A stretch of 64,000 nt of DNA from Microbispora hainanensis (GTDB lineage Bacteria > Actinomycetota > Actinomycetes > Streptosporangiales > Streptosporangiaceae). This document shows positions 11,108 to 24,940 of this stretch, piece after piece. Within the stretch, counting starts at the first letter, position 1; every line of letters starts with the position of its first letter. The DNA is taken from positions 1-64,000 of the forward strand of contig NZ_VIRM01000005.1 in NCBI RefSeq assembly GCF_006874475.1. Reading direction: 5' to 3'. A program made the position numbers and the translations under genes. A model generated the notes under the pieces. It saw only the letters and a list, made by a program, of their open reading frames with translations, did no database searches and was not told the DNA's origin.

Positions 11108-11153
11108 CCGGGCGCCCGGCCAGGGCCAGGGGATGAAGCGCAGGGCATGAGGG

Positions 11154-11927
11154 TCAGGGGATGAGCACGTCCCCCTGGCGTGCCACCTCCACCTCCTTGG
11201 CCAGCACGTCCAGCGCGTCGTCCGTACGGGCCGGGGCGTGGTGGGTGAGCACGAGGCGGCGGGCGCCGCAGCGGGCGGCGAAGGCGACGGCGTCGGCGAC
11301 CGTGGAGTGGCCGTAGGCGTCGGCCGTCGCCTGCTCCCCGGGCAGGAACTGGCCGTCGTGCAGCAGCAGGTCGACGCCGGCCGCCAGCTCGGCGGCGGCC
11401 GCGCACCCCGCCTGCGGCGCGTGGTCGGGCAGGTAGGCGATGGCGACTCCGTCACCCTCCACCCGGATGCCGTGGGTGGTGCCGCCCTTGTGGGAGATCT
11501 CGGCCACGGTGACGGCGTACCCCTCGATCACGCCGCAGGCGGAGGGGAGGAACCGCCAGGCGCCCGCGAGGCCGCCCGGGGTGATGGGGAAGTGCGGCGG
11601 GGACATGACCCGGGTCAGCGTCTCGAGCGGCCGCGGCGAGGGCAGGTAGAGATCGACCCGCGCGCCGGGGTGGTCGAGCGGCGGGCAGAACGGCAGCCCC
11701 TGCACGTGGTCCCAGTGAAGGTGGGTGACCAGGACGGAGCCGCGGAACGGCGCCCCGCCCAGCAGGGCGCCCAGCCCGCGCAGGCCGGTTCCCGCGTCCA
11801 GCACCAGGGCCGGGACGGTGGAGTCGTCGGGCAGCACGGCGACGCAACTCGTGTGACCGCCCCACCGCACGAACTCGGGGCCCGGCGCCGGGGTCGAGCC
11901 GCGGACGCCGAGCATCGCGAGCCTCAC
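11154..11927 (-). CDS. Metallo-beta-lactamase-fold hydrolase, phosphodiesterase-like
   Basis: A 257-residue MBL-fold protein. The start GVRGSTPAPGPEFVRWGGHTSC matches a subgroup of MBL hydrolases that begins with a conserved glycine-rich strand. The metal motif THLHWDHVQGLPF (HxHxDH) is intact, as are later ligand candidates (LLHDGQF, LTHHAPARTDD). The upstream cyclic-nucleotide-binding gene overlaps it by 4 bases (GTGA), so the two are translationally coupled. With a nucleotidyl cyclase just across the promoter region, a cyclic-nucleotide phosphodiesterase role is a reasonable inference, but other phosphoester or thioester substrates are possible. Confidence 0.8.
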   Translation of the reverse strand: MRLAMLGVRGSTPAPGPEFVRWGGHTSCVAVLPDDSTVPALVLDAGTGLRGLGALLGGAPFRGSVLVTHLHWDHVQGLPFCPPLDHPGARVDLYLPSPRPLETLTRVMSPPHFPITPGGLAGAWRFLPSACGVIEGYAVTVAEISHKGGTTHGIRVEGDGVAIAYLPDHAPQAGCAAAAELAAGVDLLLHDGQFLPGEQATADAYGHSTVADAVAFAARCGARRLVLTHHAPARTDDALDVLAKEVEVARQGDVLIP

Positions 11928-12922
11928 GTGAGCTGTTCCTCTCGCCGGTGCCCCTCGGCCAGCGCCGCCAGTGCCTTCCTGTCCACCGCGTCCGCGGCCG
12001 CCTCGGCCACCCTGACCGGCGTCAGCGCCGTCAGGGTCGCCGTGCGCAGGCCGCCTTCGAGCACCGCGCGCTCGCCGAGGATCGCGCCGGGGCCGAGCTC
12101 GGGCAGCGGCGTGCCGTCCACGTCCACCCCGAGCACGCCGTCGAGAAGCAGGAACAGGGAGGAACCCGGCTCGCCCTGCCGCACCAGCCGCGCGCCGGCG
12201 GGCAGCGAGCGGATGACCGGCCTGCGGGCGCCCCGCATGATCAGCAGGGACAGCTGGCGCTCCAGCGCCGTCTCGGCCGCGGTGACCAGCACCGGGGAGT
12301 CCTCGTCGCCCCACGGCGTGCGGCCGGGCCCCTCCTGGGCCGCCCACGCCGTGAAGTCGGTGAGGCCGGCCTTGAGCGTGAGCCGGTCGTCGGGCCCGTA
12401 GACCCAGTGGCGGGGGAACGGGCTCGCGCCCTCCAGCGTCCCCTCGGCCCGCCCGTCGGCGTGCAGCGTCACCGCGAGCGTGGTCCACACCAGCGGCGAC
12501 TGCATCCGCAGGTACGGCGGCCGCGAGACCCGCCGGGGGAACGGCAGCGCCGTGCGCCCGCCCGCGGTCTGCCTGAAGGTGATCCACCCGTCGCCGGTCT
12601 GGGGCGCGGGCCTCAGGTCGGGCAGGCCGTACGCGGCGAACCGCACGCCCAGCGGGCCCAGGCGGACGGTCGTGGCGCCCATGACGAGGCCGCCGTCCGC
12701 GCCGTGCGCGACCACCCGGTCGCCGTCGAACTCGGCCCAGACGCGCAGGCGGTTGGCGAACCGGAACGCGTCGCGGTCGCGCAGGCCGTCGACGTCGGTG
12801 ATCACGTCGGGCGGCGGATCGTCGTAGTGCGTGAGTCCCATCGTGAACGCGGGCTTGGTGTAGCCCTTGACCGCCTCGGACGGGATCCAGGAGATGGAAG
12901 TGATCTTCGATTCGACTCGCAT
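11924..12922 (-). CDS. Cyclic-nucleotide-binding domain protein
   Basis: A 332-residue protein. The C-terminal part (about 225-325) is a CRP-type cyclic-nucleotide-binding domain, with VIRSLPAGARLVRQGEPGSSLFLLLDGVLGV and a phosphate-binding cassette GPGAILGERAVLEGGLRTATL that keeps the Gly-Glu and the Arg. There is no helix-turn-helix, so it is not a transcription factor. The N-terminal about 220 residues are of unknown family and look beta-rich. ATG 12922 lies 6 bases after a TACGGT -10-like box, suggesting a leaderless mRNA. It is the likely receptor for the nucleotide made by the divergent cyclase and is coupled to the MBL hydrolase. Confidence 0.8.
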   Translation of the reverse strand: MRVESKITSISWIPSEAVKGYTKPAFTMGLTHYDDPPPDVITDVDGLRDRDAFRFANRLRVWAEFDGDRVVAHGADGGLVMGATTVRLGPLGVRFAAYGLPDLRPAPQTGDGWITFRQTAGGRTALPFPRRVSRPPYLRMQSPLVWTTLAVTLHADGRAEGTLEGASPFPRHWVYGPDDRLTLKAGLTDFTAWAAQEGPGRTPWGDEDSPVLVTAAETALERQLSLLIMRGARRPVIRSLPAGARLVRQGEPGSSLFLLLDGVLGVDVDGTPLPELGPGAILGERAVLEGGLRTATLTALTPVRVAEAAADAVDRKALAALAEGHRREEQLT

Positions 12923-13053
12923 GCTCTGACCGTAGGAACCGCGCGGGCCGGCTTCGAGGGCGTCAGCCTGCGAACGCGTGGGGGTGCCAGCACCCCCGGA
13001 CCGTCGTCCTGGCACCCTTTCCGCCCGCTCCTGCCGGATATGTAATTTCGCTT
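12923..13053. promoter_or_regulatory. Divergent promoter region with central palindrome
   Basis: GGGGGTGCCAGCACCCCC (12980-12997) has 8-bp arms around CA and lies at the midpoint between the two starts. Its centre is about 66 bases from ATG 12922 and from GTG 13054. A second, overlapping dyad pairs GGGTGCCAG (12982-12990) with CTGGCACCC (13009-13017). Each gene has a -10-like box 6-7 bases before its start (TACGGT at 12929-12934 on the minus strand, TGTAAT at 13041-13046 on the plus strand). Control of both directions by one regulator is likely. Confidence 0.65.
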
Positions 13054-14355
13054 GTGGAACGCATCACCGTGGTTCTCGCGGACGACAACCTGATCGTCCG
13101 CGAGGGTGTGCGCGCGCTGCTCGGCCGCGACGCCGCACTGGAGATCGTGGGGCTGGCCGCCGACTACGCCGAGGTGGTGGCCGCCGCGGTCCGCCTGCGC
13201 CCGCAGGTCGTCGTCACCGACATCCGGATGCCGCCGACCTACCAGGACGAGGGGATCGAGGCGGCGCGCGAGGTGCGCAAGCGCTTACCCGGCACGGGCG
13301 TCGTGGTGCTGAGCCAGTATGACGACCCCGACTACGCGATCCGGCTGCTCGACGAGGGCGCGGCCGGATACGCCTACCTTCTCAAGGACCGGGTCGCCGA
13401 CGCCGGCCTGCTCGGCAGGGCCATCCGGGAGGTCGCCGCCGGCGGCTCGCTCATCGACCCGGCGATCGTGCGCGAGCTGGTGACGCCCGCCCGCGACGAG
13501 GGACGGCTGTCGCCCGCCGAGGAGGACCTGCTCCGCCAGGTCGCCCAGGGCCGCACCGTTAAGGCGATCGCCGCGTCGCGGGGGGAGCCGCCCGAGGCGG
13601 TCAACGCCGAGATCGAGCGGCTCTTCCTCGTCCTCGCCAGGGGCGCGAGCGCGGGACTGCAGGGGGCGCTGCGCCGGCTGCGGATGCTGCACACCGCGAT
13701 CCTGCGCCGCGACGAGCAGGGCGAGACGCTGTCGCGCCTGCTCCCCGGCGGCCTCGCCGACAAGCTGCTGCGCGACCGCGACGCCGCCGGCCGCACGGAA
13801 CGGCTCGTCGTGACCGTGCTGATGTCCGACGTGCGCGGCTATTCGGCCATCGCGGAGGCCACCGACCCGGCGGTGCTCGCGGGCCAGCTCAACGCCCACC
13901 GGCGGGCCATGAACGCGGCGATCCTCAGCGCGGGCGGCACGGTCATGCAGTATGTGGGCGACGCCGTGATGGCCGTCTTCGGCGCCCCCGACCCCGCGCC
14001 CGACCACGCCGCGAGAGCCGTACGCGCGGCCTGTGAGATGCACGTCCGGCAGCGCGGGCTCGACGCCGAATGGGCAGGGCAGGGGCTCGTCCCCTTCGGC
14101 CTCGGCATCGGCCTTTCCACGGGCGAAGTAGCGGCGGCCCTCCTCGGAAGCGATGAACGGGTGGAGTACACCCTCGTGGGAGACACGGTGAACCTCGCCC
14201 AGCGCATGCAGGACCTGGCACGCCCCGCCGGCACGGTCGCGGCGGAGACGACCGTGCGCGCGGCCGGCGAGCGCTGGCCCTGGAAACCCCTCGGCCCGCG
14301 GCTCGTCAAGGGCCGCTCCACCCCCGTCAACGCCTATCACCTAGAGGTGAACTGA
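13054..14355 (+). CDS. Response regulator fused to a class III nucleotidyl cyclase
   Basis: A 433-residue protein with three parts. Residues 1-125 are a receiver domain with acidic DD (10-11) and phosphoacceptor Asp56 (VVTDIRMP). Residues about 150-195 resemble a weakened LuxR-type helix-turn-helix (LSPAEEDLLRQVAQGRTVKAIA). Residues about 245-433 are a class III adenylate/guanylate cyclase, with both metal aspartates (VLMSDVRGYS; VGDAVMAVFGAP) and the purine-contacting VGDTVNLAQRM. The position often filled by the adenine-specifying Lys is Gln here, so the product (cAMP or cGMP) is uncertain. It is the first gene of the operon and likely takes phosphate from the kinase encoded at 19900-21795. 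Confidence 0.88.
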   Translation: MERITVVLADDNLIVREGVRALLGRDAALEIVGLAADYAEVVAAAVRLRPQVVVTDIRMPPTYQDEGIEAAREVRKRLPGTGVVVLSQYDDPDYAIRLLDEGAAGYAYLLKDRVADAGLLGRAIREVAAGGSLIDPAIVRELVTPARDEGRLSPAEEDLLRQVAQGRTVKAIAASRGEPPEAVNAEIERLFLVLARGASAGLQGALRRLRMLHTAILRRDEQGETLSRLLPGGLADKLLRDRDAAGRTERLVVTVLMSDVRGYSAIAEATDPAVLAGQLNAHRRAMNAAILSAGGTVMQYVGDAVMAVFGAPDPAPDHAARAVRAACEMHVRQRGLDAEWAGQGLVPFGLGIGLSTGEVAAALLGSDERVEYTLVGDTVNLAQRMQDLARPAGTVAAETTVRAAGERWPWKPLGPRLVKGRSTPVNAYHLEVN

Positions 14356-14356
14356 G

Positions 14357-15076
14357 ATGTCCGCCCCCCAGCCGGCCGCCGCGATCGACGGCGCCACCAC
14401 GGAACCCGCGGCGGTGCGGGTCCGCGGCGCCCGGCGCACCTTCACCGCCGACCTCGCCCCGGTGCGCGCGCTGCGCGGGGTCGACCTCGACGTACGCCAA
14501 GGAGAGTTCCTCGCGGTCACCGGCCCCTCCGGCTGCGGCAAGTCGACACTGCTCAACGTCATCGCGGGCCTCGACGCGGTCGACGAGGGGACGATCGAGG
14601 TCGCGGGCGAGCGGGTGGACGGCAGGGACGAGGACTGGCTGGCCCGCTTCCGGCGCGGCCACATCGGGTTCGTGTTCCAGTTCTTCAACCTGCTCGACGG
14701 CGTGTCCGCACTGGACAACCTGATCATGCCCGGCGTGCTCGCCGGCATGAAGCGGCGGGCCGCCGAGTCGCGGGCCCGCGACGTGCTCGACCTGCTCGGG
14801 CTGAGCGACCGCGCGGAGCAGGTGCCCGCGGTGCTGTCCGGAGGCCAGCGCCAGCGCCCGGCGATCGCCCGCGCGCTCGTGAACGAGCCGACGCTGCTGC
14901 TCGCCGACGAGCCGACCGGCGCGCTCGACAGCGAGGGCGGCCTGGAGATCCTTGAACTGTTCCGCAGGCTCCACGGCGCCGGTCAGACGATCATCATGGT
15001 GACGCACTCGCCGGAGGTGGCCGCGGGCGCGGGCCGCACCGTGCGGATGCGCGACGGCCGGGTGGAGACGCCGTGA
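14357..15076 (+). CDS. ABC transporter ATP-binding protein (MacB/LolD type)
   Basis: A 239-residue ATPase with Walker A GPSGCGKST, signature LSGGQRQR, and Walker B LLLADEPTGAL, the last typical of the MacB/LolD/FtsE group that pairs with FtsX-like permeases. In the helix after the signature, the usual Val of QRVAIARAL is Pro (QRPAIARAL), which is uncommon. ATG 14357 is one base after the cyclase stop, and the 3' end overlaps the first permease by 4 bases. It probably energises the two permeases downstream; such systems move lipids or peptides, or transmit signals across the membrane. Confidence 0.9.
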   Translation: MSAPQPAAAIDGATTEPAAVRVRGARRTFTADLAPVRALRGVDLDVRQGEFLAVTGPSGCGKSTLLNVIAGLDAVDEGTIEVAGERVDGRDEDWLARFRRGHIGFVFQFFNLLDGVSALDNLIMPGVLAGMKRRAAESRARDVLDLLGLSDRAEQVPAVLSGGQRQRPAIARALVNEPTLLLADEPTGALDSEGGLEILELFRRLHGAGQTIIMVTHSPEVAAGAGRTVRMRDGRVETP

Positions 15077-17472
15077 GCCTCGTCAGCTTCTGGCTCCGGC
15101 TGGAGGCGCGCCGGCGGGCGCGGTCGCTGGCCGTGCTCGCGCTGCTCGTGGCCGTGGCGACCACCACGGTGCTGGCGGCCCTGGCCGGCGCGCGGCGGGG
15201 CGACGGCGCGATGGCCCGCCTGAGCGCCGTCACCCTGCCCGCCGACGCCGTCGTCCTGCCCAACCAGCCGGGATTCGACTGGGACGCGGTGCGCGCGCTG
15301 CCGGGCGTGGCGGCGGTGTCCGGCTTCGCCGTGGCCCCCTTCTTCGTCGAGCAGCTGCCCGGCTACTTCGGCTATCTCCCTCCGGTGGACCGTGACGCGT
15401 ACCGGACCGTCGAACGGCCCGTGGTGCTGGAGGGGCGGCTCGCCGACCCCGCCCGCCCGGACGAGGTCATGGTCTCCGGCTACTTCCCCGGCGCGTACGC
15501 ACTGCGCGTCGGCGACACCCTCACCCTGCGCCTGCCGTCCGAGCGGCAGGCCGGCGACTTCGATTTCAGCGACGAGCCGGGCGGTCCCCGCGTGCGGGTG
15601 CGCGTCGTCGGGGTCATCCGCTCCCCGTGGTACTCCGACAAGCTCGCCGACAAGGGCGCCTGGTTCTCCGTCTACCCCTCGCCCGCCCTCTTCGCCGCGC
15701 ATCCGAAGAACTTCCTCGGCGCCTCCTCGTCGGGCTTCGTCAACGCCCTGGTGCGGCTCGACCAGGGGGAGCGCGGTCTGCCCGCCTTCCGCGCCGGGCT
15801 GGCGAAGATCACCGGGCGTACGGACATCGAGATCTGGAACGCCGCCGACGTCGCCCGGCACCGTCAGCAGGTCAACGCCTACGAGAGCCTGTGTCTCGCC
15901 TTCTTCGCCCTGGCGGCCCTGGCCGCCGCGATCGTCCTCGTCGGCCAGTCCGTGGCCCGCTACGTCGCGGCCGGCGTCGGAGAGCTGCAGGCCCTGCGGG
16001 CGTCGGGGCTGACGACGCGGCAGTGCCTGGCCGCCGCCTGCGCCGGGCCGTTCCTCGCCTCGGTCGCCGGCTCGACGCTGGGGACCGCCGGCGCGGCGGC
16101 GGCCTCCAGGTGGACGCCGATCGGCGCGGCCTCCCTGGTCGAGCCCGCCCCCGGCTTCGACGCCGACCCGCTCGTGCTCGGCTGCGGCTGGGCCGCCGCC
16201 CCGCTGCTGGTCCTGGCCGGGGCGCTCGCCGCGGCCTGGCTCGCCGTCGTGTCGGCCCGGTCCGCGGCGGCACCGCTCCGCTCCGTGGTGGCGCGGGCGG
16301 CGGACCGCCTCGGGCTGCCCGTGCCCCTGGTGGCCGGCGCCCGGTTCGCCCTGGAACGCGGTCAGGGCGCCGGCGCGGTCCCGGTGCGCCCCGCGCTGGT
16401 GGCGGCGGTCGCGGGCGTGCTCGGCGTGCTCGCCTCCTTCACGTTCGCCGCGGGGGTCGCCGACGCGGCCGGCAATCCCACACGGTTCGGGCAGACCTTC
16501 CAGCTCACCGCCTTCCTCGGTGAGGGCGGCCAGGACTGGGCCGCGCCGGAGCAGATCATGACGGAGGTCGCCCGGGACCCCGACGTCGCGGGGGTGAACG
16601 ACGCCCGGGTGGCGGTCGCGGAGGCGGACGACGCCTCCGTCACGGTCTACCGGCACCGTCCGTTCGCCGGATCGGCCGACGTCGTGCTCCTGTCGGGGCG
16701 GATGCCCGAAGGCCCCGGCGAGGTCGTCCTGGCCCCCACGACCGCGCGCACCCTGGGCGCCGAGGTCGGCTCGTCCGTACGGCTCGCGGGCACGACCGGG
16801 CCGCGGGAGATGACGGTGCGGGGGATCGGCTTCGTCCCGCAGGGGTCGCACAACGACTACGACGCGGGCGCGTGGGCCACCGCCGCCGGATTCGAGGCGA
16901 TGTTCGGCGCGGACTTCAAGTATCACCTGGCGCTCGTCGCCCTGCGCCCGGGCGCGGATCCGCAGGCCGTCCTGGACCGCCTCACGAAGGCCATGGCCGG
17001 GATCGAGGGGGGCGACCGGATCTCCGTCGAGCCGGGGCAACCGCCCGAGCAGCTCGCCGAGGTGCAGGACGTGCAGATCCTTCCGCTCTTCCTCGGCGGC
17101 TTCCTGGCGCTGCTCGCCGTGGGCGCGGTGGGCCACGCGCTCGCCACCGCCGTACGGCGGCGCAGGCACGAGGTCGCCGTCATGCGGGCCCTCGGCATGA
17201 CCCGGGCGCAGTCACGGCTCGTCGTGTTCACCCAGGCGTCGCTGCTGGCGGTGGCCGGGCTGGCGTTCGGCGTGCCGCTCGGCGTGGCGCTGGGCCGCAC
17301 GCTGTGGCGCGTCGTCGCGGAGCGCACCCCGCTGTTCTACGAGCCGCCGGTCGCCCTCTGGGCGCTGCTGGCGATCGGGCCGGCGGCGGTCCTGGTCGCC
17401 AACCTCCTCGCGTTGTGGCCGGGGCGGCACGCCGCCCGGCTCCGCATCGGCCACATCCTCCGGACGGAGTGA
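15073..17472 (+). CDS. FtsX-like ABC transporter permease, copy 1
   Basis: A 799-residue membrane protein with the duplicated FtsX layout. An N-terminal helix near 15-35 is followed by a large extracellular domain (about 40-265) and a three-helix FtsX bundle (about 270-400). A second anchor, extracellular domain (about 450-675) and helix bundle (about 685-795) come next. The last bundle includes AVGHALATAVRRRRHEVAVMRALGMTRAQ, the usual permease coupling region. GTG 15073 overlaps the ATPase stop. It is closely similar to the next gene and probably forms a heterodimer with it. Confidence 0.88.
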   Translation: MSLVSFWLRLEARRRARSLAVLALLVAVATTTVLAALAGARRGDGAMARLSAVTLPADAVVLPNQPGFDWDAVRALPGVAAVSGFAVAPFFVEQLPGYFGYLPPVDRDAYRTVERPVVLEGRLADPARPDEVMVSGYFPGAYALRVGDTLTLRLPSERQAGDFDFSDEPGGPRVRVRVVGVIRSPWYSDKLADKGAWFSVYPSPALFAAHPKNFLGASSSGFVNALVRLDQGERGLPAFRAGLAKITGRTDIEIWNAADVARHRQQVNAYESLCLAFFALAALAAAIVLVGQSVARYVAAGVGELQALRASGLTTRQCLAAACAGPFLASVAGSTLGTAGAAAASRWTPIGAASLVEPAPGFDADPLVLGCGWAAAPLLVLAGALAAAWLAVVSARSAAAPLRSVVARAADRLGLPVPLVAGARFALERGQGAGAVPVRPALVAAVAGVLGVLASFTFAAGVADAAGNPTRFGQTFQLTAFLGEGGQDWAAPEQIMTEVARDPDVAGVNDARVAVAEADDASVTVYRHRPFAGSADVVLLSGRMPEGPGEVVLAPTTARTLGAEVGSSVRLAGTTGPREMTVRGIGFVPQGSHNDYDAGAWATAAGFEAMFGADFKYHLALVALRPGADPQAVLDRLTKAMAGIEGGDRISVEPGQPPEQLAEVQDVQILPLFLGGFLALLAVGAVGHALATAVRRRRHEVAVMRALGMTRAQSRLVVFTQASLLAVAGLAFGVPLGVALGRTLWRVVAERTPLFYEPPVALWALLAIGPAAVLVANLLALWPGRHAARLRIGHILRTE

Positions 17473-17478
17473 GCGGCG

Positions 17479-19896
17479 ATGACCATGACGGCTACCTGGC
17501 TGCGGCTGGAGTCACGCCGCCGCCGGCGGTCACTGGCGGTGCTGACCCTGCTCGTGGCCTTCGCCTCGGCCACCGTCCTGGCCTCGGTGGCCGGCGCACG
17601 GCGAGGCGGCACGGCGGTGGACCGGCTGACGCGGGAGACGATGCCCGCCACGATCTCGGTGCTGCCCAACCAGCCGGGCTTCGACTGGGACGCGGTACGC
17701 GCGCTTCCCGAGGTCGCGGCGCTGACGATGTTCGCGGTGTCGGGCGGCTTCTGGGTTGACGGCATCCCCGTGTCCGACAACATCTCCGTGTTTCCGCCTA
17801 CCGACGGGGAGTTTCTGCACACCGTCGAGCGGCCGGTCATTCTCGACGGACGGCTACCGGATCCGGGACGGGTCGCCGAGGTCGTGGTCACTCCGATGTT
17901 CACCTGGTCGTACCACCGCCGTGTGGGCGACCGGCTGGTCCTGCGGCTGATGTCCCCCGATCAGGCATCGGACCCGGACTACGACCCGTCGAACGGCGAG
18001 CCGCCGCGGGGACCGTCGGTTCCGGTCACGATCGTCGGCGTGGTCCGCGCGCCGTGGTTCGCCGATCGCGCCGGGGAGAAGGGCGCCCTCATCCCGTCGT
18101 ACGGACTGTTCGCGAAATATCGGGAGAACCTGATCGGGGAGGACGGCTTCGTCAACGCCATCGTCCGCCTGAAGCACGGCACGCGGGACATCCCCGCGTT
18201 CCGGGAGGGACTCGCCCGGGTCTCCCACCGCAACGACATCGACGTGTGGGACAACGAGACGAAGTTCGCCGAGCCCATCCGCCGGATGGCCGGCTTCGAG
18301 GCCGCCTGCCTGCTCGCCTTCGGGCTCGCCGCGCTGGCCGCGGCGATCGTGCTGATCGGGCAGTCGGTGGTGCGCTACACGGCGGCGACGGTCGCCGACC
18401 TGCAGGTGCTGCGGGCCGTCGGCCTGACACCGCGCCAGACGGTGTGGGCGGCCTCGGCAGGTCCGTTCCTCGCGGCGCTCGCCGGCGCGACCGCGGGGGC
18501 CGTCGCCGCGGCGGTGGCGTCCGCCTGGATGCCGATCGGCGCCGCCGCTCTGGTCGAGCCCGCCCCCGGCGTCGACCTGGACTGGCCCGTCCTGGCCGGC
18601 GGGCTGATCCTGATCCCCGCGCTCGTCCTCGCCGCGGCCGGGGGCGCGGCGGTCGTCACCCTGGCCATCGCCCGGCACGACCCGGCGGGACGCCGGTCCC
18701 TGGTGGCCCTCGCGGCGGCCCGCGCCGGTCTTCCCGTGCCGCTCGTGGTCGGTGCGCGGTTCGCCCTGGAGCCGGGCAGGGGCGCAGCCGCGGTCCCGGT
18801 CAGGCCGGCGCTGGCCGGCGCGGTCTCCGGAGTGCTCGGCGTGCTGGCGGCCTTCACGTTCTCCGCCGGAGTGCAGGACGCCTCCGCGCATCCGGAGCGG
18901 TTCGGGCTGACCTACCAGCTGTCGGCGTTCTTCGGCATGAACGGGACGGACTTCGGGCCGGCCGGCGAGGTGCTCCGCATCCTGGCGCGGGAGCCGGACG
19001 TCCAGGGGATCAACGACAGCCGGATCGCGGTCGCCGAGTCCGGAGACGTCTCCGTCACGATGGGCACGTACGCCCCGGTGGGCCGCCCGCTGCCGGTGGC
19101 GCTTCTCGCCGGCCGGATGCCGCGGACGGCGGGCGAGGTCACGCTCGCGCCCAAGAGCGCCGGCATGCTCGGCGCCGGCGTGGGCGACCGGATCCCGCTG
19201 CGGGGCGGCGCCACGCCGGTGACCATGACCGTCACGGGGATCGCGTTCGTGCCCGCGAGCCCGCACAACGACTTCGGCGACGGAGGCTGGGTCACCTCCG
19301 GCGGATACGACCGGATCTTCTCCGGGGCGCAGGCATTCAAGTTCCACGCGGCCGAGATCGCCCTGCGCCCCGGCAGCGACGTCGCCGCCGTGCGGGAGAG
19401 GCTGCAGGCCGTCGTCGCCGCGGTCGAGGGCGCCGAGAACCTGGAGTTCGGAGACCCCTGGCCGCTGCCCGAGGCGATGGTCCAGATCCGCGGCGTGGCC
19501 CGGCTGCCCGCCCTCCTGTCGGTCTTCATGGCGCTCCTGGCGGTCGGCGCCGTCGGGCACGCCCTCGCGACGGCGGTCCGGCGACGGCGGCACGACGTGG
19601 CGGTGCTGCGGGCGCTCGGCATGACGCGCGGGCAGGCCCGATGGACGGTGGTCGTGCAGGCCACGCTGCTGGCGGTGTTCGGGCTCTGCTTCGGGGTGCC
19701 GCTCGGGGTCGCGCTCGGGCGCACGCTGTGGAGGGTGGTGGCGGACACGATGCCGCTGATGTACGTGGCCCCCCTGGCGGTGACGGCGCTGCTCCTGGCC
19801 GGGCCGCTGACCGTCGCCGTCGCCAACCTGCTGGCCGTCCGGCCGGGGCGGCACGCCGCCCGGCTGCGCATCGGCCACGTCCTGCGGGCGGAGTAG
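17479..19896 (+). CDS. FtsX-like ABC transporter permease, copy 2
   Basis: An 805-residue permease with the same domain order as copy 1 and long near-identical stretches (TSVLPNQPGFDWDAVRALP-like segment, the AVGHALATAVRRRRH loop, and the C-terminal RPGRHAARLRIGHVLRAE). The two genes clearly arose by tandem duplication, then diverged most in the extracellular domains. ATG 17479 follows copy 1 after a 6-base gap and the gene ends 3 bases before the histidine kinase start, so it is in the same operon. A role in export or in sensing extracellular signals for the kinase is inferred. Confidence 0.88.
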   Translation: MTMTATWLRLESRRRRRSLAVLTLLVAFASATVLASVAGARRGGTAVDRLTRETMPATISVLPNQPGFDWDAVRALPEVAALTMFAVSGGFWVDGIPVSDNISVFPPTDGEFLHTVERPVILDGRLPDPGRVAEVVVTPMFTWSYHRRVGDRLVLRLMSPDQASDPDYDPSNGEPPRGPSVPVTIVGVVRAPWFADRAGEKGALIPSYGLFAKYRENLIGEDGFVNAIVRLKHGTRDIPAFREGLARVSHRNDIDVWDNETKFAEPIRRMAGFEAACLLAFGLAALAAAIVLIGQSVVRYTAATVADLQVLRAVGLTPRQTVWAASAGPFLAALAGATAGAVAAAVASAWMPIGAAALVEPAPGVDLDWPVLAGGLILIPALVLAAAGGAAVVTLAIARHDPAGRRSLVALAAARAGLPVPLVVGARFALEPGRGAAAVPVRPALAGAVSGVLGVLAAFTFSAGVQDASAHPERFGLTYQLSAFFGMNGTDFGPAGEVLRILAREPDVQGINDSRIAVAESGDVSVTMGTYAPVGRPLPVALLAGRMPRTAGEVTLAPKSAGMLGAGVGDRIPLRGGATPVTMTVTGIAFVPASPHNDFGDGGWVTSGGYDRIFSGAQAFKFHAAEIALRPGSDVAAVRERLQAVVAAVEGAENLEFGDPWPLPEAMVQIRGVARLPALLSVFMALLAVGAVGHALATAVRRRRHDVAVLRALGMTRGQARWTVVVQATLLAVFGLCFGVPLGVALGRTLWRVVADTMPLMYVAPLAVTALLLAGPLTVAVANLLAVRPGRHAARLRIGHVLRAE

Positions 19897-19899
19897 CCC

Positions 19900-21795
19900 A
19901 TGATCGCCGCCTGTGCGCTCGTCGCCGCCGCCTGGCTCGCCGCCACGGTGGCCGCCTTCTTCGCCGGCCGCCCGGCGCTGGCCCGCGTGGCCGGGCTCGT
20001 CGCCGTGACACAGGCGGTGGCCGTCGTGGTGCCCCGGGCCGCGCCGCTGGTCGTGGCGGCCTGGCTGATCTGCGGACTCGGCCTGCCGGACGGCCCGCTC
20101 GGATCCCCGGCCCGGCGGCTGCTCGCGGCCGGAGCGGCGGCGGGCGCGCTCGTGTGGACGGCGGCGCTGCCGGTCACCACGGGATCCGTCCTCGCCGCCG
20201 CGGCCGCCGCCGCGGCCGTGGCGCTCGGAGGTGTGGCCGTCCGCTGTCCCAGGGCGCCCGCCGCGCGCCGCCGCACCCTGCAGTGGATCGCCGCGGCCAC
20301 GGTGGTGACGGCCGCTGTCGACGCCGTGCTGGTGGCGGTCAACGCCCTGCTCGACACCCCGCACGACCTGCTGCCCTGGATGCTCGGCGCGATGGCGGTC
20401 ATGCCCGTGGGCCTGCTGCTCGGCCAGGTGAAGGCGACCGCGCGCCTGGCGGAGCGGGCCCTGGTCGAGGCGGTGGTGATCGCGGGCCTGACCATGCTCG
20501 TGGTCGCGGTCTACCTGGTCGTGGTCATCGGGCTGGCCCGCCGTCCCGTCGCCGCCGAGCGCGACGTGCTGGTCGCCAGCGTCGCAGCCTCCCTCGCGGC
20601 GGTGCTGCTCGCCCTGCCCGTACGGTTCCGCCTGGTCTCGGTGGGGATGTCGTTGCTGGGACGGCGCGGGCAGACGCCGGAGGAGGCGCTCGCGTCGTTC
20701 GGCGCCCGGATGAGCCGAGCGGTGCCGTTCGACGAGCTGCTGCTCCAGCTCGTGGAATCGCTGCGGGCCGCGCTCGGCCAGGCCGGCGCCGAGGTGTGGG
20801 TGGGCGCGGACGGCACGCTCCACCGCCAGGTCAGCGTGCCGGAACGCCCGGCCGACGTGATCGCCCTCACCGACAAGGAACGGCTCGTCATCGGGGGCAC
20901 CCGCATCGGCGGCACCGCCTGGACGTCGGTCTGGCTGCCCGCGCTGCTCGACGACCGCGAGGCGCCGATCCGGGTGGCGCCCGCCGCCCACCTGGGCGAC
21001 CTGCTGGGCCTGCTCGTCGTGCGGCGGCCACGCGAGGGCGTCGAGTTCTCCGAGGAGGACGACAGCGTGCTCATCCAGCTCGCCCGCCAGGTGGGGCTGG
21101 CCCTGCACAACATGCGCCTGGACACCGCGCTGCAGGCGTCGCTGGAGGAGCTGCGGCAGCGCAACGAGGAGCTGCAGGCGTCCCGGCTGCGCATCGTCAC
21201 GGCCGCGGACGCCTCCCGGCGGGCCATCGAGCGCGACCTGCACGACGGCGCACAGCAGCATCTCGTCGCGCTCGCGGTCAAGCTCGGCCTCGTCCGCGAG
21301 ATCATCAAGGATGATGTGGCCATGGCCGCCGGGCTCCTCGACGAACTGCGTGGCGACGTGCAGCAGGCCAACGCCGCGTTCCGCGAGCTCGCCCACGGCA
21401 TCTATCCGCCCCTGCTGCGCGACCACGGGCTCGGCGAGGCCCTGCGCTCGGCCGGCCGCCGGGTGGCGCTGCCGTACCGGGTGGAGGTGGACCTGGCGGA
21501 ACGCTATCCGGAGCAGGTCGAGGCCGCGGTGTACTTCTGCTGCCTGGAGGCGATCCAGAACGCGGGCAAGTACGCGGGCCCCGGCGCGTCCGTGGAGGTG
21601 CGCATCCACGCCGAGGACGGCGTGCTGCACTTCAGCGTGCGCGACGACGGCGCGGGCTTCACGCCGGGCGGCGTCCAGGGGCATGGTTTCGTCAACATGA
21701 CCGACCGGCTCGGCGCGATCGGCGGGCGGCTGCACGTCGAGTCCGCGCCCGGGGCCGGGACGACGATCAGGGGAGAGGTGCCGGTGCATGGCTGA
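19900..21795 (+). CDS. NarL-type sensor histidine kinase
   Basis: A 631-residue membrane kinase. Residues 1-250 hold about six to eight hydrophobic helices. A GAF-like region follows (about 265-405), then a coiled coil (QASLEELRQRNEELQASRL). The HisKA_3 motif ASRRAIERDLHDGAQQHL carries phosphoacceptor His448. The ATP-binding domain ends the protein (DDGAGFTPGGVQGHGFVNM, then GTTIRGEVP). ATG 19900 is 3 bases after the permease gene. Likely partners in this window are the receiver-cyclase, the stand-alone receiver and two NarL-type regulators. The 3' end overlaps the oxidoreductase gene by 8 bases. Confidence 0.93.
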   Translation: MIAACALVAAAWLAATVAAFFAGRPALARVAGLVAVTQAVAVVVPRAAPLVVAAWLICGLGLPDGPLGSPARRLLAAGAAAGALVWTAALPVTTGSVLAAAAAAAAVALGGVAVRCPRAPAARRRTLQWIAAATVVTAAVDAVLVAVNALLDTPHDLLPWMLGAMAVMPVGLLLGQVKATARLAERALVEAVVIAGLTMLVVAVYLVVVIGLARRPVAAERDVLVASVAASLAAVLLALPVRFRLVSVGMSLLGRRGQTPEEALASFGARMSRAVPFDELLLQLVESLRAALGQAGAEVWVGADGTLHRQVSVPERPADVIALTDKERLVIGGTRIGGTAWTSVWLPALLDDREAPIRVAPAAHLGDLLGLLVVRRPREGVEFSEEDDSVLIQLARQVGLALHNMRLDTALQASLEELRQRNEELQASRLRIVTAADASRRAIERDLHDGAQQHLVALAVKLGLVREIIKDDVAMAAGLLDELRGDVQQANAAFRELAHGIYPPLLRDHGLGEALRSAGRRVALPYRVEVDLAERYPEQVEAAVYFCCLEAIQNAGKYAGPGASVEVRIHAEDGVLHFSVRDDGAGFTPGGVQGHGFVNMTDRLGAIGGRLHVESAPGAGTTIRGEVPVHG

Positions 21796-23230
21796 CGGCT
21801 TCGACGCCGTGGTGGTCGGTTCGGGCCCGAACGGGCTGGTGGCGGCGGTCACCATGGCCGAGGCGGGCAGGCGGGTCCTGCTGCTGGAGGCGGCGGACGC
21901 GTTCGGCGGCGGGCTGCGCACCGCGGAGGTGACACTGCCCGGGTTCCGGCACGACCTGTGCGCGACCGTGCTGCCGCTGGCGCTGGCCTCACCCGCCTTC
22001 CGCCGGGACCGCTTCTGGCAGGACCTGGGAGTCGAGTGGGCGCATCCCGCCATACCGGCCGCGCATCCGCTGGACAAACGCCCGGCGGTGCTCGTCCACC
22101 GCTCGCTCGGCGAGACCGCGCGGGGGCTCGGCCGCGACGGCCCGGCCTGGCGGGCCACGGTGGGGATGATCACGCGCGGGGGCGACCGGCTCGTCGACAC
22201 GCTGCTCGCCCCTCTGTCGGTGCCGCGCGCGCCCCTGCGGGCCGCCGGGTTCGGTGCGGTGGCCGCGCTGCCCGCGACCGCGCTCGCCCGCGCCGTGTTC
22301 CGTACGGCCGGGGCGCGGGCGGCGCTCGCCGGGATGGCCGCGCACTCGATGCTCGACCTGCGCGCGCCGATCACCGGCGGATATGGGCTGATGCTGGCCG
22401 GGCTCGCGCACCATGTGGGGTGGCCCCTGGTGCGCGGCGGCTCCCAGCGGCTCGCCGACGCGCTCGTCCGCCGCATCAGGGACCTCGGCGGCGAGGCGCA
22501 CACCGGACACCGGGTGCGGAGCCTCGACGAGGTGCCCGCGGCCGCGTCGATCCTCCTGGACCTCACGCCACGCCAGGTGCTGGCCGTGGCGGGCCGCCGG
22601 CTGCCCCCGGCCTACCGGGCGCGGCTGGGCCGGTTCCGCTACGGCCCCGGCGTGTTCAAGCTCGACTGGGCGCTGTCGGGACCGGTGCCGTGGGCCGACC
22701 CCGCCGTGGGCATGGCCGCGACCGTGCACCTCGGCGGCGCCATGGAGGAGATCGCGCACGCGGAGGCGGAGGTGAGCCGGGGGCGGCATCCGGACCGGCC
22801 CTACGTGCTGCTCGTCCAGCCCGGCGTGGCCGACCCCACCCGGGCTCCCGAGGGCGGGCACGTTTTGTGGGCCTACTGCCACGTGCCGAACGGCTCACGG
22901 GTGGACATGACCGATGCGGTCGAAGCGCAGATCGAGCGGTTCGCCCCCGGGTTCCGGGACCTCGTGCTGGCCCGCGCCACCATGGACACGCGGGCCTTGG
23001 AGGCGCACAACCCCAACAACGTGGGCGGCGACATCGGCGGAGGGGCGGGCGACCTGGGCCAGTTCGCCGGGCGTCCGGTCTACTCCCCGCACCCCTGGGC
23101 GACCCCCGTGCCCGGCCTCTACATCTGTTCCGCCGCCACTCCGCCCGGGCCCGGAGTGCACGGCATGGGCGGCCTGCAGGCCGCCCGCCTGGCGCTCAGA
23201 CGGGAAGCGCGCGCAGCAGGGCGGGAGTGA
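21788..23230 (+). CDS. FAD-dependent oxidoreductase, phytoene dehydrogenase-like
   Basis: A 480-residue protein with an N-terminal FAD/NAD(P)-binding Rossmann motif (AVVVGSGPNGLVAAVTMAEAGRRVLLLE, GxGxxG) and the C-terminal FAD signature VPGLYICSAATPPGPGVHGMGG of the phytoene dehydrogenase/amine oxidase superfamily. Members desaturate or oxidise isoprenoids and other hydrophobic substrates; the substrate here is unknown and no carotenoid genes are nearby. ATG 21788 overlaps the kinase stop by 8 bases, so translation is coupled. Its 3' end overlaps the convergent receiver gene by 35 bases. A metabolic enzyme tightly coupled to a sensor kinase is unusual. Confidence 0.85.
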   Translation: MADGFDAVVVGSGPNGLVAAVTMAEAGRRVLLLEAADAFGGGLRTAEVTLPGFRHDLCATVLPLALASPAFRRDRFWQDLGVEWAHPAIPAAHPLDKRPAVLVHRSLGETARGLGRDGPAWRATVGMITRGGDRLVDTLLAPLSVPRAPLRAAGFGAVAALPATALARAVFRTAGARAALAGMAAHSMLDLRAPITGGYGLMLAGLAHHVGWPLVRGGSQRLADALVRRIRDLGGEAHTGHRVRSLDEVPAAASILLDLTPRQVLAVAGRRLPPAYRARLGRFRYGPGVFKLDWALSGPVPWADPAVGMAATVHLGGAMEEIAHAEAEVSRGRHPDRPYVLLVQPGVADPTRAPEGGHVLWAYCHVPNGSRVDMTDAVEAQIERFAPGFRDLVLARATMDTRALEAHNPNNVGGDIGGGAGDLGQFAGRPVYSPHPWATPVPGLYICSAATPPGPGVHGMGGLQAARLALRREARAAGRE

Positions 23231-23555
23231 GGTCGTCCTTGCGGATGTAGGCGAGCGCCCCGCACGCGCCGGCGTCGGGCGGCAGATCGTCGGCGGCGTA
23301 CGTCGACACCAGCACGACCTTCACGTCGGGCGACTCGGCCAGGATGCGGCGGGTCGCCTCGATGCCGTTGATCCCCGGCAGGTTGATGTCCATCAGGATC
23401 ATGGTGGGCCGGCCGCCGATCACCAGGTCGAGGGCGTCCTCGCCCGTCGCCGCCTCGCCCACCACCCGCCATCCCGGCAGCAGCCGGATCAACGCCCGGG
23501 CGACCGACCGGAACGGAGCCTGGTCGTCCACGATGATCACGTCGACCACTCGCAT
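23196..23555 (-). CDS. Stand-alone response-regulator receiver domain
   Basis: A 119-residue protein that is a receiver domain and nothing else: acidic pair Asp10-Asp11, phosphoacceptor Asp56 (ILMDINLPG), the VSTY switch strand and the conserved Lys in YIRKDDL. It has no output domain, so it may act as a phosphate sink, a phosphorelay intermediate or a protein-binding switch. ATG 23555 is 6 bases after a GATCCT -10-like box with TTGGAC 17 bp further upstream, implying a leaderless mRNA. The island palindrome lies about 65 bases upstream. Confidence 0.88.
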   Translation of the reverse strand: MRVVDVIIVDDQAPFRSVARALIRLLPGWRVVGEAATGEDALDLVIGGRPTMILMDINLPGINGIEATRRILAESPDVKVVLVSTYAADDLPPDAGACGALAYIRKDDLTPALLRALPV

Positions 23556-23561
23556 GTCCCC

Positions 23562-23626
23562 AGGATCCCGGAAGCCGGCGCCGCGTCCAAGGGCGTGACC
23601 ACCACGATCAGCGGGTGCTAGCACCC
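23562..23626 (-). promoter_or_regulatory. Promoter and palindromic operator of the receiver gene
   Basis: On the minus strand, TTGGAC (23585-23590), a 17-bp spacer and GATCCT (23562-23567) lie just ahead of the start codon. The perfect palindrome GGGTGCTAGCACCC (23613-23626) is centred about 64.5 bases upstream of the start, the same distance and nearly the same sequence as the palindrome at 12980-12997. It overlaps the end of the upstream response-regulator gene. Confidence 0.65.
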
Positions 23627-24288
23627 CCGTGCTCGGACAGGTACATCAGCACGGCCATCACCCGGCGGTTCATGTCGGGCTCGGCGCCCAGCCCGAGCTT
23701 GGCGAACAGCGCGTTGATGTGCTTTTCCACCGCCCGCTCGGTGAGGAACAACGCGGCCCCGACCGCGGCGTTGCTCTTGCCCTGCGCGATCTGGGCCAGC
23801 ACGTCCCGCTCGCGCGAGGTGAGCTGGGCCAGCGGCGACGACCGCGCGTGCACGGTGTCGGCCACGAGCGCCTCCACCACCGCCGGGTCGATCACCGAGC
23901 CGCCCCGGGCCACCGTGCGGACCGCCTCGATCAGGTCGTGCGCGTCGCTCACCCGCTCCTTGAGGAGGTAGGCCCGGCCGCTGCTGCCCCCCGCCAGCAG
24001 CGGCGTCGCGTACGCGGGCTCGGCGTACTGGGAGAGCACCACGACCCCCACCCGCGGGTGGGACTCGCGCAGCCTGACGGCGGCCTGGACCCCCTCGTCG
24101 GACGCCGTGGGGGGCATCCTGATGTCGGTCACCACGACGTCGGGATCGTGCTCGCCCACCGCCGCCATCAGCCCGGGGAGATCGCCGCAGGTGGCGACCA
24201 CCTCCAGATCGGGCTGGAGATCCAGGACCCGCCGCACGCCCTCGCGCACGAGCAGCGAGTCCTCAGCGATCACGATTCTGATGGGCAC
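23608..24288 (-). CDS. NarL/LuxR-family response regulator, copy 1
   Basis: A 226-residue regulator with a receiver (acidic Asp10, phosphoacceptor Asp55 in VVTDIRMPP, Lys in YLLKERV) and a C-terminal LuxR helix-turn-helix ([45 protein letters not shown]). GTG 24288 is chosen because GGAGGGG precedes it and translation begins exactly at the receiver. It overlaps the upstream regulator gene by 26 bases. It probably answers to the island's histidine kinase or to one elsewhere, and may bind the palindromes in this island. Confidence 0.9.
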
Positions 24289-24940
24289 CTGTCCCCTCCA
24301 TACGCAGCCACGTGAGCACCGCGAGGACACGGCGGTTGTCGTCCGGGGTCTGGCTCAGGCCGAGCTTGGTGAGCACGGCCGCGATGTGCGCCTCGACCGT
24401 CTTCGTGCCGAGGAACAGCGCCCTGGCGATCGCCGCGTTCGACCTGCCCTCGGCCATCAGGCGCAGCACATCCCGCTCGCGCGCGGTGAGCCGGTCGGCG
24501 AGCGACTCCTCCTGCCGCAGCCGGAACAGCATGCTGACGACCTCGGGGTCCACCGCGACGCCGCCGGCGGCGACCCGCTCCAGCGCGTCCCGGAGTGCGG
24601 ACGCGTCGTCGACCCGGTCCTTCAGCAGATAGCCGACGCCGCGCGGGCTCGATTCGAGCAGCCGCGCGGCCAACGCGCCCTCGGCGTACGTGGACAGGAC
24701 CAGCACGCCGAGTGCGGGAAAGCGTTTCTTCAGCTCCGTCGCCGCCACCAGCCCCTCGTCGGTGAAGGTGGGAGGCATCCGCACGTCGAGGATGACGGCG
24801 TCGGCGGGCCGCGTCTCCAGCAGGGCGGTGAGTTCGGAGGTGTCGGCGGCCTGCGCCACGACGGTCACGCCGACGCGGTCGAGCAGCAGAGCCAGTCCCT
24901 TACGGAACAGGGCCGAGTCGTCACAGATCACCACCCGCAT
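24263..24940 (-). CDS. NarL/LuxR-family response regulator, copy 2
   Basis: A 225-residue regulator: receiver domain with Asp7-Asp8 and phosphoacceptor Asp52 (VILDVRMPP), Lys in YLLKDRV, and a LuxR helix-turn-helix (LTARERDVLRLMAEGRSNAAIARALFLGTKTVEAHIAAVLTKLGL). It is the first gene of a two-regulator operon and overlaps the next by 26 bases. The 217 bases beyond its start, up to the end of the penicillin-binding protein gene, hold no visible gene. The two regulators are clearly paralogous and could compete for sites or form heterodimers (inference). Confidence 0.9.
   Translation of the reverse strand: MRVVICDDSALFRKGLALLLDRVGVTVVAQAADTSELTALLETRPADAVILDVRMPPTFTDEGLVAATELKKRFPALGVLVLSTYAEGALAARLLESSPRGVGYLLKDRVDDASALRDALERVAAGGVAVDPEVVSMLFRLRQEESLADRLTARERDVLRLMAEGRSNAAIARALFLGTKTVEAHIAAVLTKLGLSQTPDDNRRVLAVLTWLRMEGTGAHQNRDR

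Follow-up and report, generated by a model that had tools for sequence, protein, structure and literature searches.

A conserved gene island in Microbispora hainanensis that may place a cyclic-nucleotide circuit under two-component control

Bacterial cAMP is usually regarded as a global signal. Can a histidine kinase also command a cyclic-nucleotide circuit of its own? The question is raised by a block of eleven genes at positions 11154–24940 of a 64,000-nt stretch of Microbispora hainanensis contig NZ_VIRM01000005.1 (the whole stretch analyzed, hereafter the window). The block encodes a receiver–cyclase fusion, a cyclic-nucleotide-binding domain (CNBD) protein referred to here as the receptor, a metallo-beta-lactamase (MBL)-fold hydrolase, an ATP-binding cassette (ABC) ATPase, two FtsX permeases, a sensor kinase, a flavin adenine dinucleotide (FAD) oxidoreductase, a lone receiver, and two NarL-type regulators, J and K. 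The receptor and MBL genes lie on the minus strand and diverge from the plus-strand cyclase, ABC, FtsX, kinase, and FAD genes, while minus-strand K, J, and the lone receiver close the far end. All of these genes had been named in an initial annotation, and the open reading frames together with Pfam and NCBIfam searches bear them out with their domains (K was assigned from NCBIfam; Pfam covered the other genes). Features that the initial annotation had not noted are the overlap of the receptor and MBL genes, a helix-turn-helix-like remnant in the cyclase, and two copies of a palindrome. From its gene content, the intact motifs of its proteins, its conserved neighborhood, its presence or absence as a block in the genus, and a palindrome shared by several of its genes, we favor, as the somewhat likelier account, a self-contained island whose two-component system governs a cyclic-mononucleotide circuit. 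The link from kinase to messenger is probably real, because relatives of this gene set are found in distant bacteria, some of them with a shared DNA control site.

The neighborhood extends well beyond this species. Full-length relatives of the cyclase (62–98% identity) were found in 15 of 119 related genomes in addition to the genome itself, and they keep the same neighbors wherever the contig permits. A scan with two peptide patterns, which supplied loci L040–L118 and sets a lower bound on the phylogenetic spread, places cyclase loci in at least the Actinomycetota, Dormibacterota, and Chloroflexota. Among the loci listed are those of Microbispora, Planotetraspora, Acrocarpospora, Herbidospora, Streptacidiphilus, Jiangella, Pseudofrankia, and Parafrankia, as well as metagenome-assembled genomes labelled Acidimicrobiia, Nitriliruptorales, Dormiibacterota, and Chloroflexi. 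In all, 77 distinct cyclase loci were compared, eight repeats having been removed beforehand and five pairs with cyclases more than 97% identical (including the window and L024) having been kept. Partners were counted at the 35 loci with at least 3 kb upstream and at least 9.9 kb downstream: the receptor and the kinase were each present at 32, a J-type regulator and FtsX each at 28, the ABC gene at 27, the MBL gene at 23, and the FAD gene at 20, the count for J being too low where three or four FtsX genes place it outside the fetched stretch (as L113 shows when compared with the L046 contig). The conserved synteny whose absence would, by the initial annotation, have spoken against its reading is therefore present in relatives. 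Regulator K was found only in the genus and at L028, many loci ending before its position. The FtsX, ABC, and MBL genes are dispensable across loci, and L062, L066, L071, and L092 keep cyclase, receptor, kinase, and J without ABC/FtsX. Because several loci with long flanks lack ABC/FtsX at the thresholds used, the earlier suggestion that an ABC/FtsX complex gates the signal fails as a general feature.

In each of 296 independently drawn genomes of the phylum, scoring was confined to the best 5 to 10 candidates. A close cyclase match turned up in 18 of these genomes (17 at ≥500 bits and one split on two contigs). The receptor was present in 16 of these 18, in none of 16 genomes with a weaker match, and in 11 of 262 with no match. 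It lay within about 1 kb of the cyclase in ten of the 16, 7 kb away in one, and on a different contig in five, so that adjacency is not shown for those five genomes. Two further class III cyclase loci in the M. hainanensis genome (L001 and L003), which at 3.5 kb each are a weak control, contain no island partners. Distances between cyclases and between partner proteins are correlated (Spearman 0.45–0.70), a result that carries little weight because kinship is ignored.

The receptor is present in four of 15 Microbispora genomes, the same four that carry the cyclase. The dnaE gene of this place is found at ≥95% in ten of the 15, and in six island-free congeners (L152–L157) the alignment with the window ends at 11110–11122 and restarts at 25438–25863, the whole block being absent next to dnaE (L158 and L159 were left out of this reading). 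The two flanking parts almost touch in L153. Other genes stand at this place in L157, and the site is therefore variable in the genus; by eye, they encode NTPase-like, ABC-transporter-like, and ATP-grasp-like proteins. The variable interval, again judged by eye, runs from dnaE to penicillin-binding-protein-like/murA-like genes and is near-empty, short, or filled with other genes. In genomes G001, G005, G007, G010, and G012 the only dnaE match is a paralogue at 61%; G003 and G004 have both.

A palindrome, GGGTGCYRGCACCC, precedes the cyclase, the receptor gene, and the lone receiver by about 65 bp. The copy between the divergent genes, GGGTGCCAGCACCC, is centered 66.5 bp from the receptor start and 65.5 bp from the cyclase start, and the second, GGGTGCTAGCACCC, lies 64.5 bp ahead of the lone receiver. 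The pattern GGGTGCNAGCACCC occurs at four places in the 8.7-Mb genome, two of them in the island, and its backward control at none. Relaxed sites collected across loci fall beside the cyclase, receptor, lone receiver, or J in 37 of 49 cases. Windows before each gene (with starts taken from the profile, a few codons inside the true starts) were compared with 100 shuffles: the palindrome was found before the cyclase in 16 of 75 (shuffle mean 0.19, maximum 2), before the receptor in 13 of 69 (mean 0.13; mostly the same sites as those of the cyclase), before the lone receiver in 16 of 57 (mean 0.06, maximum 1), at J in 4 of 55 (mean 0.07), and at the kinase in 1 of 57 (mean 0.12), and it was absent from the windows before MBL (0/48), ABC (0/46), and FAD (0/29) genes. 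Related loci were counted separately, so the effective number of sites is smaller. The window as well as the Streptacidiphilus (L051) and Jiangella (L055) loci carry both sites. Loose copies with three mismatches numbered 14 in the window against 24 expected from shuffles, and the 9-base half-palindrome occurred twice against 1.3 expected; since loose copies do not exceed chance, the claim rests on the fixed-place sites across loci. At loci without the strict palindrome a search for another shared dyad gave only half-site-like words, and at the other loci of the receptor (L119–L137) no such palindrome stood out. Acrocarpospora- and Herbidospora-type loci (L031, L032, L045–L049) have GAGGGTTA/TAACCCTC words upstream of the cyclase instead of the palindrome. 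The palindrome letters were met in the open-access literature only in unrelated papers, as judged by title.

Of the two regulators, J is the candidate for binding the palindrome, because K was not seen at L044, L051, and L055, which carry both sites together with J. The recognition helix of J (EKHI) has Ile in all 23 J proteins from palindrome loci, a locus being scored as such if a site lay at any of the three genes for cyclase, lone receiver, and J; the other 34 rows comprise 21 with Ile, 12 with Thr or Ser, and one cyclase fragment. This distribution is no more than suggestive of a tie between the Ile and the palindrome, since related loci enter the count repeatedly. The island genes that carry the palindrome probably form one regulon, with J as its candidate regulator.

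The receiver–cyclase itself appears well preserved. The acid pair of its receiver (D10 and D11) and D56 are invariant in 13 aligned rows, in keeping with a response regulator that has a cyclase output, and the candidate phosphorylation sites of the four receivers are D56 (cyclase), D56 (lone receiver), D55 (J, numbered from the GTG at 24288), and D52 (K). The active-site residues in the window protein are D259, Q299, D303, T373, N380, and R384. D259 and D303, presumably the metal-binding residues, are found in 77 of 77 rows, and N380 and R384, which we take to be the transition-state residues, in 75, the other two rows being gapped; the protein thus has the metal Asp pair and the Asn/Arg pair of class III cyclases. 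Between receiver and catalytic domain, the middle part aligns with the LuxR-type helix-turn-helix (HTH) of J, yet gives no GerE match in Pfam. Residues 4–204 are 48% identical to J (150 bits), and among the matches listed J is the best other match in the genome, the next, located elsewhere, reaching 123 bits. Because its N-terminal part best matches J in its own genome, we infer that the receiver–cyclase derives from a J-like NarL regulator whose HTH decayed and which acquired a cyclase domain.

The CNBD protein represents, by its sequence, a receptor family without an existing name. The phosphate-binding motif of its CNBD (GERA..RT) is intact, with G283 and E284 invariant, and R293 almost invariant, across 59 rows, as in CNBDs that bind cyclic mononucleotides (GE...R). 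The N-terminal domain (residues 1–217) has 23 invariant positions in 58 rows; the polar and aromatic ones include H32, D34, R54, Q118, R123, W146, R171, H172, W193, and W204. Its structure was modelled with a mean pLDDT (predicted local distance difference test) of 89.5 for the domain alone and 87.2 for the whole protein, and the domain model resembles BAS0735 (PDB 3c5p) at the level of the fold (Z 12.9, root-mean-square deviation 3.5 over 171 residues, 17% identity), the second-best structural match listed reaching only Z 4.2. The solved BAS0735 chain, a protein of unknown function, has 194 residues and no CNBD, in contrast to the island receptor. Pfam gave weak, scattered matches on the 58 N-domain rows (best E 0.019), a viral structure library gave no match at E up to 0.001, and a search of the open-access literature for BAS0735 or 3c5p returned nothing relevant, as judged by title and the start of the abstract. 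The only match of the N-domain sequence profile among solved structures, to an antibody (E 0.048), was dismissed as chance; the likeness to BAS0735 is thus seen in the fold and not in the sequence. In the 296-genome draw, the N-domain profile recovers exactly the 27 genomes and 34 places of the whole-protein profile; within that draw the N-domain is therefore seen only joined to a CNBD.

Outside the island, the receptor occurs at 17 places (L119–L135) in 11 genomes that have no cyclase match at the limit used. A class III cyclase confirmed by Pfam lies near ten of them (L119–L123, L125–L127, L132, and L133), just a weaker cyclase profile match (87 bits) stands at the contig end of L124, and no cyclase was seen in the fetched stretch at L128–L131, L134, and L135. 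These cyclases have at least three other designs: zinc ribbon–cyclase–AAA–TPR, cyclase–NB-ARC–TPR, and GAF–cyclase. Those with a zinc ribbon, cyclase, AAA/NB-ARC, and TPR are STAND-like (L119–L133). Genomes G131, G145, and G158 have three receptor copies apiece. We tentatively propose, with less than even confidence, that the receptor founds a new class of cyclic-nucleotide-gated effectors, in which a BAS0735-like enzyme or binding module would be switched by the CNBD and serve as the shared output of several class III cyclase types, tied here to a two-component kinase through a Gln-type cyclase that may make a product other than cAMP.

Taken together, these features suggest how the circuit might work. 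The membrane kinase, a protein with eight hydrophobic stretches in a crude scan, would sense a cue, perhaps through ABC/FtsX here, and phosphorylate the four receivers. Phosphorylation of the receiver–cyclase would activate the class III cyclase dimer, and the product, most likely cAMP, would bind the receptor CNBD, whose conserved residues are those of a nucleotide binder; the resulting change in the N-terminal domain would be the output. The MBL protein would clear the messenger, J may bind both palindromes such that the circuit sets its own level, and the lone receiver may compete for phosphate. The single signal path proposed in the initial annotation, in which the kinase drives both a phosphorelay and a second messenger, is thus supported in part, by the synteny, the block in the genus, the shared operator-like site, and the intact cyclase and CNBD motifs; its phosphotransfers and its cyclic-nucleotide hydrolysis are putative, and its gating by ABC/FtsX does not hold in general.

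Several observations weigh against this account. The receptor is absent at L056, L063, and L077, all among the 35 loci with long flanks, and at L059, L088, and L089, whose flanks fall just below the limit; the last two, from Parafrankia, have none of the partners. A close cyclase without any receptor match is found in G307, on a 4-kb contig, and in G259, in a 15-kb stretch, and a subfamily of more weakly matching receiver–cyclases (L138–L147) occurs with kinases and regulators and without the receptor. The palindrome is missing before the cyclase at 59 of 75 loci and before the lone receiver at 41 of 57, and the link between J and the palindrome is confounded by the relatedness of the loci. 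Finally, the base-selecting position of the cyclase, four residues before the second metal Asp, holds Gln299 where the ATP-selecting Lys of class III adenylyl cyclases sits, so that the protein lacks the signature of an ATP-specific enzyme.

This last point bears on the identity of the messenger. The Gln is present in 77 of 77 aligned rows, a figure biased for L040–L118 because one of the two peptide patterns contains it, and in 16 of 16 orthologues found without a Gln-containing pattern; the second selectivity site, Thr in 57 and Ser in 18 of the 77 rows, does not decide the nucleotide. That a Gln-type cyclase makes cGMP or a different cyclic mononucleotide, to be read by a CNBD like that of cGMP-dependent kinase, is in our view unlikely, though such an alternative would fit this invariance. 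It would also fit the top solved relatives of the CNBD by sequence, which are cGMP-dependent kinases (their scores sum several CNBDs per chain), and the three solved cyclases in the alignment, which have Glu or Lys at the base-selecting position, the best having Glu and being, we presume, a guanylyl cyclase. In the available text of PMC4215837, Lys goes with ATP and Glu with GTP in class III cyclases, and the CTP-using EaPycC carries Arg at the place four residues ahead of its second metal Asp, a position obtained by counting (PMC11224242, available text). Because Gln299 differs from all three, the product is not readable from the sequence of the cyclase. On the other hand, seven cyclases near receptor relatives, whose base-selecting residue was read by motif search, have Lys in five cases (L119, L121, L125, L127, and L133) against Gln in two (L120 and L123), which favors cAMP as the ligand of the receptor family, and cAMP is also the likely product here. 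Whether the MBL protein would erase it can be judged less firmly. Its HLHWDH motif (H66, H68, D70, and H71) is invariant in 35 aligned relatives and has the HxHxDH form, and further His and Asp residues, also invariant in the 35 rows, fall at what we take to be the metal-ligand places of RNase Z. RNase Z is the closest match of the profile among solved structures, with YhfI (6kns) among the weaker ones (E 0.00022). It is also the best model for the window protein, which scores 37.7 of the 400 bits required by the NCBIfam cyclic-nucleotide phosphodiesterase model NF041851, and RNase Z models match all 35 relatives (E up to 1e-5), so that an RNase Z-like or other phosphoesterase with no action on the messenger is possible, if on balance doubtful. 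Against it, 30 of the 35 relatives match NF041851 at the same E limit, the start of the MBL gene overlaps the stop of the receptor gene (GTGA), and the two genes also adjoin at L133 and L135, in genomes without a close receiver–cyclase match. With some enzymes of the MBL phosphodiesterase fold cleaving cyclic mononucleotides (PMC9117128, available text), a role as messenger eraser is plausible.

Two broader alternatives concern the island as a whole. The block could consist of two unrelated units that merely sit side by side, an ABC/FtsX–kinase–regulator envelope response and a cyclase–receptor–MBL set, and the variation of the ABC/FtsX, MBL, and FAD genes among loci would agree with this, as would L036, where the receptor–MBL pair stands on the opposite side of the regulators. 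Even there, however, the moved pair is still within the locus, and the loci without ABC/FtsX retain the kinase alongside cyclase and receptor. The cyclase moreover bears a receiver and best matches its neighbor J, the same palindrome stands ahead of both the cyclase/receptor pair and the lone receiver, and the block is whole or absent in the genus; we consider two independent units improbable. Far less probable still is a Pycsar-like anti-phage system, with a cyclase, a CNBD effector, and an MBL brake like Apyc1. The PADLOC models PycC and PycTIR do match the cyclase and the CNBD protein, and the MBL protein has the class II phosphodiesterase fold. The PADLOC matches nevertheless extend over the cyclase and CNBD domains only, and the nine weak Pfam families matched by the 58 N-domains at E up to 1 include no TIR or membrane effector. 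In addition, the cyclase bears a receiver, and a kinase shares the locus. The CTP-selecting residues F100, R142, and Q144 of EaPycC (PMC11224242, available text) fall, by offset mapping only, on M257, Q299, and V301.

Parts of the island circuit that we favor have known counterparts. Cyanobacterial CyaC is a response regulator with a class III cyclase output. A receiver joined to an adenylate/guanylate cyclase domain is listed as response-regulator class CyC-C in Table 5 of PMC9953108; the island protein shares this fusion and differs in its HTH-like remnant, akin to the neighboring NarL regulator, and in the company of receptor, MBL, and kinase genes. The Xanthomonas XC_0250/XC_0249 cGMP pathway likewise pairs a class III cyclase with a linked CNBD effector gene, but the effector domain there is GGDEF rather than BAS0735-like, and the available text of PMC3770947 mentions no receiver, kinase, or MBL partner, all three of which the island has. 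Pycsar systems also combine cyclase and CNBD effector (PMC11224242, available text; PADLOC models), whereas the island has no TIR or transmembrane effector, other selectivity residues, and a receiver on its cyclase. The MBL protein shares fold and HxHxDH motif with YhfI, Apyc1 (PMC9117128, available text), and RNase Z, but stays far under the family cut-offs and is encoded by a gene that overlaps a CNBD gene. Receiver–cyclases and cyclase–CNBD pairs are thus already known, as far as Table 5 of PMC9953108 and the available text of PMC3770947 go. Searches of the open-access literature yielded no paper on this gene set, as judged from the entries listed, and the words "receiver" and "response regulator" were not found in the available text of an actinobacterial cyclase survey (PMC2447327), a short text made up mostly of references. 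No name for the gene combination, the receptor N-domain, or the shared site was found in Pfam, NCBIfam, PADLOC, or that literature. If the proposed circuit is real, it would be widespread and locally wired, with a histidine kinase in command of its own cyclase, receptor, and likely eraser and with a control site of its own. The occurrence of the receptor family near several kinds of class III cyclase would also offer an entry to the roles of some actinobacterial cyclases.

Table 1. Genes and operator-like sites of the island in the window.
Feature	Position	Strand	Basis and remarks
MBL-fold hydrolase, 257 aa	11154..11927	-	Pfam Lactamase_B_2; GTG start
CNBD receptor, 332 aa; N-domain 1-217, CNBD ~235-320	11924..12922	-	Pfam cNMP_binding; GERA..RT
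Operator-like palindrome GGGTGCCAGCACCC, between divergent CNBD and cyclase genes	12982..12995		sequence
Receiver, HTH-like remnant, class III nucleotide cyclase, 433 aa	13054..14355	+	Pfam Response_reg, Guanylate_cyc
MacB/LolD/FtsE-type ABC ATPase	14357..15076	+	Pfam, NCBIfam
FtsX/MacB-type permease 1	15073..17472	+	Pfam
FtsX permease 2	17479..19896	+	Pfam
NarL-type sensor kinase, 631 aa, His448	19900..21795	+	Pfam HisKA_3, HATPase_c
FAD oxidoreductase (CrtO/phytoene-desaturase-like), accessory	21788..23230	+	Pfam, NCBIfam
Lone receiver, 119 aa, candidate D56	23196..23555	-	Pfam
NarL-type response regulator J, candidate D55, GerE HTH	23608..24288	-	Pfam
Second operator-like palindrome GGGTGCTAGCACCC, inside 3' end of gene J	23613..23626		sequence
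Second NarL-type response regulator K, candidate D52	24263..24940	-	NCBIfam

A composition-based gene caller recovered most of the genes in Table 1, but missed the MBL gene and favored a false minus-strand frame across FtsX permease 2, the kinase, and the FAD gene; these four genes were accepted because domain matches and relatives decide over a composition caller. The top NCBIfam match of the FAD oxidoreductase is CrtO, at a score far under the cut-off of that model. Kinases, J-type regulators, or lone receivers are present at most of the ten loci L138–L147, and ABC/FtsX genes at L144 and L145. The number of FtsX genes ranges from one to four or more per locus (L025, L034, L045, and L144), which suggests repeated duplication.

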